The notes below the pieces were generated by a model. It was not told the origin of the DNA. It was given only the letters and a program-made list of their open reading frames with translations, and did no database searches. Both the position numbers and the translations under genes were made by a program. From positions 3,472,001-3,536,000 of the forward strand of contig NZ_CP072014.1 of assembly GCF_017603825.1 (NCBI RefSeq): 64,000 nt of DNA, written 5' to 3'. Positions 3,629-8,620 of the stretch are shown here, piece by piece. Source of the DNA: Arthrobacter crystallopoietes. Lineage in GTDB: Bacteria > Actinomycetota > Actinomycetes > Actinomycetales > Micrococcaceae. How positions within the stretch are numbered: position 1 is the stretch's first letter; the number at the start of each line of letters is the position of its first letter.

Positions 3629-4249
3629 TTAGTCGAACTCGGGACTGGTCGTGCGGGAGCGCTTGATCTCATAGAAGTACGGGAATTCCGCCAGCGCGAC
3701 GGCGCCATCGAAGATCCGTCCGGCCGTATCTCCACGGGGAATCCGTGTCAGTACCGGTCCAAAGAAGGCGGTTCCGTTGAAAGCAACTACCGGGGTTCCG
3801 ACCTCATCGCCCACCAGACTGATGCCTTCCTCATGGCTGGCGCGCAACTGCTCGTCATATTCATCAGAGGTGGCGAATCCAGCCAGGTCTGCCGGAAGGC
3901 CTGCTTCCGCCAGCGACGCCGTGATGACGGCCTCGATGTCCTTGTTGCCTTCGTTGTGGATACGGGTTCCCATGGCGTCGTACAGCCGCTTGACGAAGTC
4001 GGCACCGTGCAGTTCCCGGGCGGCAATGATGACGCGGACCGGGCCCCAGGCGGTCTTCAGGAATTCCTTGTAATTGTCCGGCAACTCATCCCGGCCATCG
4101 TTCAGTACTGCCAGGCTCATGACGTGCCAGTCCACTTTAACCTCACGGACCTTTTCAACCTCCAGCATCCAGCGTGAGGTGATCCATGCGAACGGGCATG
4201 CGGGATCGAACCAGAAATCAACGGTCGATGGTGAGTTGTTATCGGACAT
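3629..4249 (-). CDS. DsbA-family protein, mycothiol-dependent nitroreductase homologue
   Basis: This 206-residue thioredoxin-fold protein is very like M. tuberculosis Rv2466c, a mycothiol-dependent reductase that activates nitro-prodrugs. The shared segments are DFWFDPx[33 protein letters not shown], VGTPVVxxNG and [13 protein letters not shown]. The mycobacterial enzyme has a CPWC active site; here residues 18-21 read CPFA, so only the first cysteine remains. Reduction by mycothiol through a mixed disulphide could still work with one thiol. The gene lies downstream of the two clpX genes with a 55-base gap and may share their transcript. No signal peptide is seen, so it is cytosolic. Family is secure; enzymatic activity is inferred. 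Confidence 0.88.
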
Positions 4250-4304: not shown

Positions 4305-5597
4305 TCAGGCGGATTTGTTCCGGCGCAGGGCAGCAACGTCCTGCGGGATCAGGATGGGATTGCCTTTACCCTTGATGACGTCGCCGGTTATGACCACGGA
4401 AGCGATATCCTGCCGGCTCGGTATCTCGAACATCACCGGCTGCAGCGCTTCTTCCACAATGGCACGCAGTCCGCGGGCGCCGGTCCCCCGCTCGAGGGCG
4501 AGATCCGCAACCGTTTCGAGGGCCTCCGGCTCGAACGAAAGCTCCACACCGTCGAGTTGGAACATCTTCTGGTACTGCTTGATCAGTGCGTTCTTCGGCT
4601 CTGTCAGGATCTGGATAAGCGCCGGGCGGTCCAGTTTCGATACCGTGGTAATCACCGGCAGGCGTCCGATGAATTCCGGTATCAGTCCGAACTTCAGCAA
4701 GTCCTCCGGCATGACCTGCCCGCGGCTGTCCACGTCCTTCGAAACCTCGCGCAGCACCGCGCCAAAGCCGACTCCCTTGCCTCCGGACCTGCTGTCAACG
4801 ATTTCCTCTAGTCCGGCGAAGGCGCCGGCCACGATGAAGAGCACGTTGGTCGTATCAAGCTGGATGGCTTCCTGCTGCGACTGCTTCTTGCCGCCCTGCG
4901 GTGGAACGGAGGCTACGGTTCCCTCGAGGATTTTCAGCAGTGCCTGCTGGACACCTTCACCGGAAACGTCGCGGGTGATGGATGGGTTCTCGCTCTTGCG
5001 CGAGATCTTGTCGATCTCGTCTATGTAGATGATCCCCTGCTCGGCCTTCTTGACATCATAGTCAGCGGCCTGCAGAAGCTTGAGCAGAATGTTCTCGACG
5101 TCTTCGCCCACGTAGCCGGCCTCGGTCAGGGCCGTCGCATCCGCTATGGCGAACGGAACGTTGAGCCGGCGTGCCAGGGTCTGCGCGAGAAAAGTCTTGC
5201 CGCAGCCCGTCGGACCGACCAGCAGGATATTGGATTTGCCGACCTCGACGTCGGCCAGCGGACCGGCGTCGGCGGAATCAGGAGAAGCTTCGGATACCGG
5301 AGCCGGCTGGGTACGTTTGTAGTGGTTGTAGACCGCAACAGCCAGGGCGCGCTTCGCAGGCTCTTGCCCAATGACGTATTCCTGCAGGGACTCGAAGATC
5401 TCCCGCGGTTTGGGCAGTTCGAAGCCGTCAGGCTCGGACGCTACCGAAAATTCTTCCACGAGCATCTCGTTGCACAGCCCGATACATTCGTCACAGATGT
5501 AGACCCCGTGGCCCGCGACCAGCTTTCGGACCTGTTTCTGGCTTTTGGCGCAGAAAGAGCATTTGAGCAGGTCGCCGTTTCCACCAATGCGGGCCAT
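4305..5597 (-). CDS. second ClpX-like AAA+ unfoldase (divergent paralogue)
   Basis: This 430-residue protein aligns without gaps to the ClpX encoded immediately upstream. It keeps the zinc-binding cysteines C13/C16/C35/C38, Walker A GPTGCGKT (128-135), the GYVG pore-1 loop (161-164), Walker B IIYIDE (189-194), the arginine-finger segment [11 protein letters not shown] and the sensor-2 GTGARGLR motif, so ATPase activity is expected. Two functional loops differ: the pore-entrance RKH motif is KKQ (237-239, followed by SQQEA), and the ClpP-docking IGF tripeptide is VGF (276-278). Changes in RKH are known to alter recognition of ssrA-type tags. The gap to the upstream clpX is 51 bases, so the two are probably cotranscribed. 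It could form mixed hexamers with canonical ClpX, or serve a separate substrate set. Confidence 0.9.
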
Positions 5598-5648
5598 ATT
5601 CCGTCCTCTACCTGGTCGTCTTTCTGGATTGTGCGGCGCCCGTTCCGG

Positions 5649-6941
5649 TCAGGCGGACTTGTTACGTCGCTTGGCAACCACGTCATGGGAAATCAGCGAA
5701 GGCTCCCCCTTGCCGTTCACCACATCGGCGGTAATCACCACGGAAGCGATGTCTTCGCGGCTGGGCAGGTCGAACATCACAGGTTGCAGAGCTTCCTCGA
5801 CAATGGCCCGCAGTCCGCGGGCACCTGTCCCCCGTTCGAGCGCGAGCTGGGCCACGGCATCCAGAGCCTCCGATTCGAAGGAGAGCTCGACACCGTCCAG
5901 TTGGAACATTTTCTGGTACTGCTTGATGAGTGCGTTCTTGGGTTCGGTGAGGATCTGGATCAGCGCGGTGCGGTCAAGGTTCGACACCGTAGTGATCACC
6001 GGCAGGCGGCCGATAAATTCAGGGATCAAGCCGAATTTCAGCAAGTCTTCCGGCATGACTTCGCCGTAACTGTCGGCGTCCTTGCTGGCGTCGCTCAGTG
6101 GGGCACCGAACCCGATGCCCTTGCGTCCGGCGCGTGAACCGATGATTTCCTCCAGCCCGGCGAAGGCGCCGGCCACGATGAAGAGCACATTTGTGGTGTC
6201 GATCTGGATGAATTCCTGATGCGGGTGCTTCCGGCCGCCCTGCGGCGGAACGGAGGCTACGGTCCCCTCGAGAATTTTCAGCAGTGCCTGCTGGACCCCT
6301 TCACCGGAAACGTCGCGGGTGATGGATGGGTTCTCGCTCTTGCGCGAGATCTTGTCGATCTCATCAATGTAGATGATGCCCTGCTCGGCCTTCTTGACGT
6401 CATAGTCGGCGGCCTGGATGAGCTTGAGCAGAATGTTCTCGACGTCTTCGCCGACGTAGCCGGCCTCGGTCAAGGCCGTTGCATCCGCGACGGCAAAGGG
6501 AACGTTGAGCCGGCGTGCCAGGGTTTGGGCCAGATAGGTCTTGCCGCAACCGGTGGGGCCGATCAGCAGAATGTTGGACTTGCCGACCTCAACATCGTCC
6601 AGCGGACTGGTGTCAGCGAGGTTCGCTGAGCTCTTGGGTGCGTGCCCCGATTGGATGCGCTTGTAGTGGTTGTAGACGGCAACAGCCAGTGCCCGCTTGG
6701 CCGGTTCCTGTCCGATGACATATTCCTGCAGGAAGTCGAATATTTCACGCGGCTTGGGCAGCTCAAAGGAACCGAGGTCCGAAACCTCGGACAGCTCTTC
6801 TTCGATGATCTCGTTGCAGAGCTCAATGCATTCGTCACAGATATAGACGCCGGGGCCAGCGATCAGCTTCCGGACTTGCTTCTGGCTTTTGCCGCAGAAG
6901 GAGCACTTGAGCAGGTCAGCGCTCTCACCAATGCGAGCCAT
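5649..6941 (-). CDS. clpX: ATP-dependent Clp protease ATP-binding subunit ClpX (canonical copy)
   Basis: This 430-residue AAA+ unfoldase feeds substrates to ClpP1P2. It has the N-terminal C4 zinc finger (C13, C16, C35, C38), Walker A GPTGCGKT (128-135), pore loop GYVG (161-164), Walker B IIYIDE (189-194), an intact RKH loop (237-239, [11 protein letters not shown]) and the ClpP-docking IGF tripeptide (276-278). The ATG at 6941 is preceded by AAGGGGACTGAAT, a good ribosome-binding site. Because it keeps all consensus loops and lies nearest clpP2, it is taken as the housekeeping copy. The coding DNA is nearly identical to the downstream copy across the ATPase core, which indicates tandem duplication or gene conversion. 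Confidence 0.96.
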
Positions 6942-7079
6942 ATTCAGTCCCCTTACTTGGTCCTACTGGAATCGGTCAACGCCCGGGAGCGGCACCTGGA
7001 GCTCCCATGCTCAGACGAATGAAGGCGGCTGACTAGCTTCCACTCTAAATCACTTGGCTGACAGTTTCAGTAACCACAG

Positions 7080-7111
7080 AGCCCGTGGTGCCATGTTAAG
7101 CACCACGGGCT
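7080..7111 (-). terminator. hairpin between clpP2 and clpX
   Basis: AGCCCGTGGTGC (7080-7091) and GCACCACGGGCT (7100-7111) form a perfect 12-bp stem with an 8-base loop, 37 bases after the clpP2 stop. It should end or attenuate the clpP1P2 transcript, so clpX probably has its own promoter in the remaining 138 bases. Confidence 0.75.
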
Positions 7112-7147: not shown

Positions 7148-7822
7148 TTAGGCCTTGTTGATGGCCGGCTTGTGGATCTTACGAGAATCGAGGACCTGGT
7201 CGATCAGTCCGTAAGACAACGCATCTTCCGCCGTCAGGATCTTGTCTCGCTCGATGTCGACGTTGACCTGCTCCGAAGTCCTGCCGCTATGCAGCGCCAG
7301 AGTGTCTTCGAGCCAAGTGCGCATACGCATGACCTCGGCTGCCTGGATCTCCAGGTCAGAAGCTTGCCCACGCTCACCGCCCCCGAGTGCCGGCTGGTGG
7401 ATCAGCACGCGTGCGTTCGGCAACGCCAGTCGCTTGCCCGGGGTACCCGCCGCCAGCAATACGGCGGCAGCGCTGGCCGCTTGTCCGAGGCAGACAGTCT
7501 GGATCTCGGGACGAATGTACTGCATCGTGTCGTAGATAGCCGTCATTGCGGTGAAGGAACCACCCGGCGAGTTGATGTACAGCGTGATGTCGCGGTCCGG
7601 ATCCGTGGATTCCAGGACCAGCAACTGTGCCATGATGTCGTCCGCCGAGGCGTCGTCCACCTGCACGCCGAGGAAAATGATCCGGTCCTCAAAGAGCTTG
7701 GTGTAGGGGTCCTGGCGCTTGAAGCCGTAAGGCGTGCGCTCCTCGAACTGCGGCAGCACATAGCGGCTGGTCGGAAGGTTGGCTGCGTGGCCGCCGGCAG
7801 CGGCAGCAAAATTGTGGTTCAT
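7148..7822 (-). CDS. clpP2: ATP-dependent Clp protease proteolytic subunit 2
   Basis: This 224-residue serine peptidase is one of the two subunits of the mixed ClpP1P2 barrel. The catalytic triad is visible: Ser117 in GQAASAAA, His142 in LIHQP, Asp193 in [10 protein letters not shown]. The INSPGGSF and YDTMQYI segments are typical of ClpP. A 20-residue N-terminal extension resembles the propeptide that is trimmed in actinobacterial ClpP2. It lies 51 bases downstream of clpP1 in the same direction and forms an operon with it. The ClpX genes follow beyond a terminator. Confidence 0.95.
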
Positions 7823-7873: not shown

Positions 7874-8500
7874 TCATGAATCCTGTGAAGTTCCGCCGCC
7901 GCCGGTAACGCCGCCGGCGTGGGCCGAAATCTTGTCGAAGAAGCCGTACTCGAGGCCTTCCTCAGCGGTAAACCACTTGTCGCGGTCATTATCCTTGAGG
8001 ATCTGCTCCACAGTCTGGCCGGTCTGCTCTGCGGTCAGCTCAGCCATAACGCGCTTCATGTGCAGAATCAGCTCGGCCTGGATCTTGATGTCGGACGCAG
8101 TACCGCCGATACCGCCGGAGGGCTGGTGCATCAGGATGCGCGCGTGCGGAGTGGCGTAGCGCTTGCCCTTGGTTCCCGAGGACAGCAGGAACTGGCCCAT
8201 GGAAGCTGCCAAGCCGGTGGCGACCGTGACGACATCATTCGGAATGAACTGGATGGTGTCATAGATGGCCATGCCTGCCGTCACCGAACCGCCGGGCGAG
8301 TTGATGTAGAGGTAGATGTCCTTGTCAGGATCCTCGGCCGAAAGCAGCAGCAGCTGGGAACAGATGGCATTGGCGTTCTCGTCCCGCACTTCCGAGCCAA
8401 GCCAGATAATGCGTTCCTTCAGCAGGCGATTGTAGATGTAGTCTTCCCGGGTGGCCGGGTCGACGGTGGCCATCTTCGGAGTGGTTGATTCACTGGACAT
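7874..8500 (-). CDS. clpP1: ATP-dependent Clp protease proteolytic subunit 1
   Basis: This 208-residue ClpP has the triad Ser100 (GLAASMGQF), His125 (LMHQPSGG) and Asp174 ([11 protein letters not shown]). The ATG at 8500 is chosen because AGAGG lies about nine bases upstream; a longer open frame reaches 8536 without a ribosome-binding site. ClpP1 pairs with ClpP2 in a heterotetradecamer that is essential in mycobacteria. A match to the ClgR operator lies about 120 bases upstream (8621-8634), so the operon is probably induced by protein-folding stress. The glycine-rich C-terminus (GGVTGGGG) is probably disordered. Confidence 0.95.
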
Positions 8501-8620
8501 TCTGAAATACCTCTCGCTTGTCCCCACAGGCTGCACCGGTGGCCGGTGCAGTCCCCAGGTTCTTTTTCCTTCTTGGACACTAACGCGGATCAGTGCCCGT
8601 TTCTGCCTTATTTACGGGCT

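Follow-up and report, generated by a model that had tools for sequence, protein, structure and literature searches.

The 64,000-nucleotide stretch of Arthrobacter crystallopoietes DNA analysed here (the window) carries two clpX genes in tandem, and the downstream copy, B, is without the RKH motif of the pore-entrance loop. Judging from sequence, we put it at slightly better than even that B would be a functional ClpX acting on the same ClpP1P2 as the upstream copy, A, that it would read the ssrA tag poorly, and that it would have a shifted set of substrates, either alone or in mixed rings. Among the genomes sampled, ClpX was almost always encoded by one tightly constrained gene. A conserved natural paralogue with changes in the loop that E. 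coli mutants have identified as the reader of the ssrA tag would make it possible to ask how an otherwise normal ClpX behaves once relieved of tag clearance, and whether ClpX rings mix subunits in nature.

The locus lies on the minus strand of the window, with the gene order tig, clpP, clpP, clpX A, clpX B and then a gene at 3629..4249. The ClpP and ClpX identities were assigned from family-profile matches; the first gene is one we take to be tig, and the last is presumably DsbA-like by its appearance. The first clpP of the operon was placed at 7874..8536, as an open reading frame from GTG, although translation may really begin at an internal ATG, and the second at 7148..7822. Each clpX encodes 430 aa. 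The A copy (5649..6941) grouped with the single-copy ClpX of the genus in trees, and the orthologues of the B copy (4305..5597) in three genomes of the genus, G001, G003 and G007, were 94-96% identical to it. The gene at 3629..4249 directly follows clpX in the examined single-copy relatives too.

A spacer of 51 bases (5598..5648, minus strand) lies between the two genes, from the end of the A stop codon to the first codon of B. By eye, the 3′ end of the spacer, GACCAGGTAGAGGACGGAAT, resembles the stretch immediately before A, GACCAAGTAAGGGGACTGAAT, and the duplication therefore probably brought the ribosome-binding region along. Including the stop codon, the spacer measures 54 bases in A. crystallopoietes (G000) and 61 in G008, another genome of the genus with a tandem pair, and both spacers end in the stretch resembling that before A. 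A consensus scan placed no promoter-like site in the spacer and gave no excess of promoter matches (2 vs. a shuffle mean of 1.6) or of terminator matches (3 vs. 4.6). A candidate joint promoter for A and B, GTTACTGAAACTGTCAGCCAAGTGATTTAGAGTGGAAGC, was picked out by eye upstream of A (7036..7074, minus strand). This element was recognisable by eye, with letter changes, before clpX in 10/10 genomes of the genus and was partly present in G298, G104 and G240; it was absent from the promoter matches of the consensus scan. A hairpin, GCCCGTGGTGC...GCACCACGGGC, was also seen on the minus strand at 7081-7110 of the window, between clpP and clpX A. By eye its form is kept, with changed letters, in several relatives, and it may separate clpP from clpX transcription or be an RNA element.

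The two proteins are colinear, without gaps and 83% identical (17% protein divergence), and no other ClpX match reached E≤1e-10 in the genome, which is a single contig of 4.38 Mb. Both exceeded the two NCBIfam ClpX equivalog cut-offs (TIGR00382 / NF003745): against the cut-off of 359 bits A scored 656.3 and B 625.4, and against that of 370.75 bits A scored 641.6 and B 608.8. The zinc-binding cysteines (CSFC and CDEC) are present in both copies, and GPTGCGKT, IYIDEI, the GR at 311-312 and RGTGARG are identical between them; GYVGE is unaltered in B. The first two of these identical stretches are Walker A and Walker B, and GYVGE is pore loop 1. At residues 237-239, A has RKH (CGG AAG CAC, 6225..6233) and B has KKQ (AAG AAG CAG, 4881..4889). 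At residues 276-278, in the ClpP-docking loop, IGF of A (6108..6116) is VGF in B (4764..4772), which thus conforms to the docking tripeptide [ILV]GF. The initial annotation had described two gapless 430-residue tandem ClpX proteins at 4305..6941, with the ATPase and zinc-finger residues kept and with these two motif changes in the downstream copy, and it was correct as to both positions and residues. Alignment to the solved chain 8e91_A placed residue 237 at 228 and residue 276 at 268, equating the two motifs with E. coli 228-230 and 268-270; 228 and 268 are the numbers given to the E. coli RKH and IGF motifs in the portion of the published work drawn on here (PMC7112951).

The other changes in B had been called scattered, a description that needed correction since they are clustered. 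Sites were counted as B-specific where all four KKQ-bearing copies differed from all ten A copies of the genus. By this count only 4/107 sites were B-specific in the core (119-225), versus 11/52 in the zinc domain, 5/10 in the linker, 11/22 in the stretch 97-118, 4/24 in the RKH loop, 11/33 around the IGF loop (263-295) and 9/30 in the C-tail. B passed every ClpX sequence feature tested except RKH and, as RKH is a signature of function and natural ClpX proteins without it are known, according to partial texts, in human (PMC7652416) and in Myxococcus xanthus ClpX2 and ClpX3 (PMC11423568), B was still classed as a ClpX.

Two ClpX were found in 5/10 genomes of the genus (G000, G001, G003, G007 and G008), in each case as a tandem pair at the same place. 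The A copies carry RKH and IGF in 10/10 genomes. The second copy carries both KKQ and VGF in 4/4 of G000, G001, G003 and G007, and RKN and LGF at the same location in G008. A search with a KKQ pattern, confined to the genus, matched the same 4/10 genomes and no other. The statement in the initial annotation that most actinobacteria have a single clpX held in the samples: two matches were obtained in 4 of 398 genomes of the phylum (G000, G756 and G481/G750; 390 with a match), 2 of 396 of the order (G000 and G855; 389 with a match) and 7 of 395 of the family (the five genomes above, G317 and G322; 388 with a match), in overlapping surveys that each include G000, where contigs may be broken and where a third or weak copy could escape because only four candidates were scored per genome.

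The ClpX matches of G481/G750 were pieces, and the three pieces that cover the loop keep RKH. The extra copies of G317 and G322 (on another contig, C2, of 375-401 kb), G756 and G855 are, like B, full-length and stand beside another ClpX in the genome; unlike B, they are non-tandem (on another contig or about 106 kb off) and keep RKH. Duplication as such was rejected as the cause of RKH loss, since these three other full second copies and the loop pieces of G481/G750 retain the motif. Some of these loci had features of their own. The contig with the extra ClpX in G317 and G322 (L130, 8857-10167, and L131) is possibly a plasmid, and the neighbouring open reading frames in L130, judged from their translations alone, resemble a dihydrofolate reductase and a UmuD/UmuC-like pair. 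The second copy of G855 (L158, contig C13) has an AAA+ part almost identical to that of the first copy (L157) and a quite different zinc domain, as if the core had been homogenised. The second ClpX of G756, a member of another family of the class, lies about 106 kb from the first (L154, contig C19) and has CVEC for the zinc-domain CDEC.

The rarity of KKQ was assessed in an alignment with 112 other ClpX proteins. These comprised the 10 A copies, 22 proteins of the same family from a whole-genome search and 80 genome-collection loci, which were taken from the matches listed and chosen by nearness to B and include one, L016, labelled Vibrio. Repeat fetches of the same genes (L002 and L012-L015) were excluded, and L118 of G327, which keeps RKH and has an odd N-terminus, was left out of both the 112 and the trees. 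R237, K238 and H239 were invariant in 112/112 of these proteins and KKQ occurred in 0/112; F244 was F in 110/112. Site 276 was I in 79, V in 18, L in 13 and M in 2, with the G and F of the tripeptide invariant. Among these proteins KKQ thus stands out, whereas VGF does not. No KKQ copy was present among the 80 loci kept from the matches listed, the search patterns for which included a KKQ-bearing peptide; close relatives of the window may be missing from those matches.

At the level of the family, the canonical-motif pattern QGG[R/S]KHP was matched in 379 of 395 genomes, and its reversed control in 2. The initial annotation had looked to conservation of KKQ across genera as support for function; the copies with KKQ that were seen instead all belong to a single clade within one genus, and outside that genus the canonical motif was matched in 369/385 family genomes. 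In 7 of the 16 family genomes with no motif match, ClpX itself gave no match at E≤1e-100 either. The other 9 all belong to the genus g3 (G011, G041, G106, G241, G312, G328, G332, G339 and G342) and have a ClpX match and no match to the canonical motif; in most of them the ClpX match was weaker than elsewhere in the family. These nine may have a single-copy ClpX with an altered loop, a differing neighbour letter or a broken or masked gene, and because of them it is possible that some genomes of the family with just one ClpX lack RKH.

The proposed function of B draws on published mutants, as reported in the portions of those papers drawn on here. Arg228 and His230 of E. coli ClpX touch the ssrA degron; with R228A or H230A the KM for ssrA substrates is much higher, and R228A in addition makes the enzyme more specific for N-degrons. 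Human ClpX has Leu at position 230 and leaves ssrA-tagged proteins undegraded (PMC7652416). Changing RKH to AAA abolishes degradation of ssrA substrates, AKH, KHR and KRH slow it, and a ring in which 2/6 RKH loops are AAA has a KM about 3-fold higher (PMC7112951). Chlamydial R230A retains the hexamer and ATPase activity and loses tag reading (PMC9601184).

In the mechanism we propose, B would have arisen by tandem duplication of clpX within the tig-clpP-clpP-clpX locus and then been retained. As it retains the zinc domain, the ATPase, pore loop 1 and the docking tripeptide, it would still form a ClpX subunit and would most likely share ClpP1P2 with A as its docking partner. In the RKH loop of B, both side chains that contact ssrA-type degrons are gone (R to K and H to Q), and because of this loss rings of B, as well as rings mixing A and B, are predicted to be poor readers of the LAA tag. 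B would shift to other substrates, e.g. N-terminal degrons or adaptor-delivered proteins, and A would retain ssrA clearance. Mixed A/B rings are plausible because the genes are adjacent and the core is near-identical. The effect may be milder than that of R228A, as R to K keeps the charge. The expression, ring assembly, ClpP docking and substrate shift of B are what we infer. The earlier suggestion that the copy may choose different substrates is supported to the extent that the equivalents of R228 and H230 are changed, H239 is invariant in the aligned ClpX proteins (112/112), KKQ is kept (4/4) and the apparently separate second copy of G008 has lost the same His. Counting against the proposal are the confinement of KKQ to one clade of one genus and the faster change of B than of A in two of three dN/dS comparisons, which is also expected under relaxed constraint.

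A tag-reading ClpX would still be required and is still there, as A keeps RKH in 10/10 genomes and the tmRNA tags read in all 10 (11 of the 12 loci fetched) end in LAA. In the four KKQ species the ssrA tag is A(E/D)SKQHDFALAA, and the remaining six have AESKRTDF(A/E)LAA (loci L135-L144 and L146); lying in one clade, the QH/RT difference is indistinguishable from shared descent. A changed ssrA tag was considered as the cause of B and set aside, since all tags read end in LAA and the QH/RT difference is confined to that clade. G006 has a second tmRNA, with the tag AKPMRTDFELAA.

The nearest precedent is ClpX2 of M. xanthus, which has ClpX1, ClpX2 and ClpX3 and in which deletion of clpX2 leaves fruiting-body development deficient (PMC11423568). 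As in B, K replaces the R of RKH in a genome with more than one ClpX. The part of that report drawn on here names only R to K for ClpX2, whereas B has also replaced H, and B sits directly behind clpX at the clpP locus, unlike the extra copies of M. xanthus. The same text calls multiple ClpXs rare in bacteria, and extra ClpX genes are therefore rare but already known (PMC11423568). With the canonical ClpX of E. coli and M. tuberculosis B shares the zinc domain, AAA+ module, pore loop 1 and docking tripeptide, and it differs from them in having KKQ where they have RKH. In human mitochondrial ClpX, according to the available portion of the report, Thr199 of pore loop 2 is replaced by Leu as well, whereas B keeps that stretch (PMC7652416). 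No tandem clpX in actinobacteria was found in the literature titles and abstract openings covered, a scope mostly outside the subscription journals.

A somewhat unlikely alternative is that B mainly adds ClpX dosage or a share of the ring subunits and that its RKH and docking loops drift since A handles ssrA, with no new substrate choice selected. NG86 estimates of dN/dS were 0.008 for A and 0.116 for B between G000 and G001, 0.023 and 0.062 between G000 and G003, and 0.137 and 0.070 between G003 and G007, a near-identical pair with very few changes. Judged by these values, far below 1, B is under purifying selection, less tight than that on A. The faster change of B in 2/3 comparisons is what drift would predict, and B has also diverged in the zinc domain, linker, 97-118 stretch and C-tail. 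Moreover, the three other full second copies (G317/G322 C2, G756 and G855) keep RKH, so that duplication has no fixed outcome, and the nine g3 genomes may vary at the motif without a duplicate. Drift of the loop does not readily account, however, for the constancy of KKQ across four species whose B copies have diverged from one another by a dS of as much as 0.44 and in which residue 240, just after the motif, is S or P, or for the change of the same His to an amide in both types of B (His239 is Q in the KKQ copies and N in G008_B).

The KKQ copies and the G008 copy are more likely, from the trees, to derive from two separate tandem duplications than from one. The trees were built from hand-chosen rows, 24 for the protein and DNA approximately unbiased (AU) tests and 21 for the segment tests. 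In the 24-row DNA tree the KKQ copies formed a clade (100/100) adjoining the A copies of the same four species. G008_B was sister to G008_A in the protein (96/94) and DNA (99/98) trees, and the G008 pair fell within a group with the single-copy G004 and G006 (90/87, DNA tree). A single B clade was rejected on DNA (p-AU 2.6e-5), without columns 151-240, i.e. on the non-core part (p=0.0007), and on the C-part (0.0003).

An unlikely rival history, concerning origin and compatible with any functional reading of B, has one duplication in the ancestor of the genus; some lineages would then have lost the copy, and gene conversion between A and B would mimic a separate G008 event. It agrees with the AU tests that gave no rejection of a single B clade, on protein (0.073), the N-terminal segment (0.10) and the core (0.064), and with L50F, S418P and K424L/M being common to both B types, P418 also occurring in two outgroup rows. 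The conversion-like stretches in the KKQ genomes and an identical run of 18 codons in G008 (302-319, P=0.009), both described below, point the same way. The three DNA rejections oppose it, as does the comparison of third positions, in which G008_B was not clearly closest to a KKQ copy in any of seven 60-codon windows; in codons 1-60 G000_B was nominally the highest to G008_B (0.54), but the seven rows compared ranged from 0.49 to 0.54.

The best 40-codon windows between A and B in the KKQ genomes, starting at 164-182, shared 35-37/40 codons, with 0/2000 shuffles as high; in G000 the best window had 36/40 identical codons (0/2000). A possible gene-conversion tract covers B codons 176-236 (4890..5072, minus strand), where codon choice is unusually close to that of A at 6234-6416. 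The conversion-like tract of G000 reaches near the RKH codons, and in G003 and G007 synonymous differences resume at about residue 226. In G008 the best A-B window had P=0.12, beside the 18-codon run. Among A-A controls, G002-G005 gave a 28-codon run and a window of 38/40 (0/2000, residues 2-29), stronger than the A-B run, and G005-G004 gave P=0.014-0.02 near 159-198; three other controls had no signal. As A-A controls also fire, such stretches can come from recombination or from codon constraint. The pattern fits a conversion of the core that would have kept the RKH loop apart.

The two B types also overlap in the conserved sites they have changed. Of 162 positions invariant in the 112 proteins, the KKQ copies changed 5 and G008_B changed 4, with 2 shared (I45 and H239; hypergeometric P=0.0045), and of 199 positions at least 98% conserved they changed 8 and 6, with 4 shared (P=1.6e-5); both P values are post hoc, depend on a sample of 112 picked near B and assume independent origins. 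G008_B also changed N204, near pore loop 2, and the two B types are hence unlike in some relevant respects. If the origins are truly separate, evolution would have run in parallel, on a small scale, at a residue whose mechanistic role is understood. A bolder extension, which we regard as quite unlikely and offer tentatively, is that after two tandem duplications in one genus each daughter changed His to an amide (Q or N), the core being kept alike by conversion, and that the ratio of RKH to tag-blind subunits in mixed rings would tune the preference of ClpXP for ssrA-tagged waste versus regulatory substrates. If true, this would be a natural control of degron choice by subunit mixing in ClpX.

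It is very doubtful that B unfolds proteins independently of ClpP or works with another protease. The docking site does matter: in the part of the E. coli work drawn on here, I268L, F270L and V274A cause severe ClpP-binding defects (PMC7112951). Both B types have altered site 276 (to V and L), and 263-295 is rich in B-specific changes (11/33 in the KKQ copies). Yet V (18/112) and L (13/112) are found at site 276 in other ClpX proteins, the G and F are invariant, and the ClpX of M. tuberculosis uses LGF loops to dock on ClpP2, according to a partial text of the report (PMC11992174). A search with one ClpP query (E≤1e-10) gave two matches in each of 10/10 genomes of the genus, both in this operon. 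The idea that the copy pairs with another ClpP-like partner, raised in the initial annotation, was set aside, as a third ClpP was not found in the 10 genomes at this threshold and V at the IGF site is common. An assembly artefact or decaying pseudogene can be dismissed, with nothing found in its favour, on the 17% protein divergence between the copies in a single-contig genome and the stop-free frames and identical gene order in five assemblies.

The alignment set also gave an observation on the locus labelled Vibrio cholerae (L016, record WNZI01000002.1). Its ClpX grouped with that of Arthrobacter echini in a 69-row tree (100/92), and the record looks mislabelled or contaminated.
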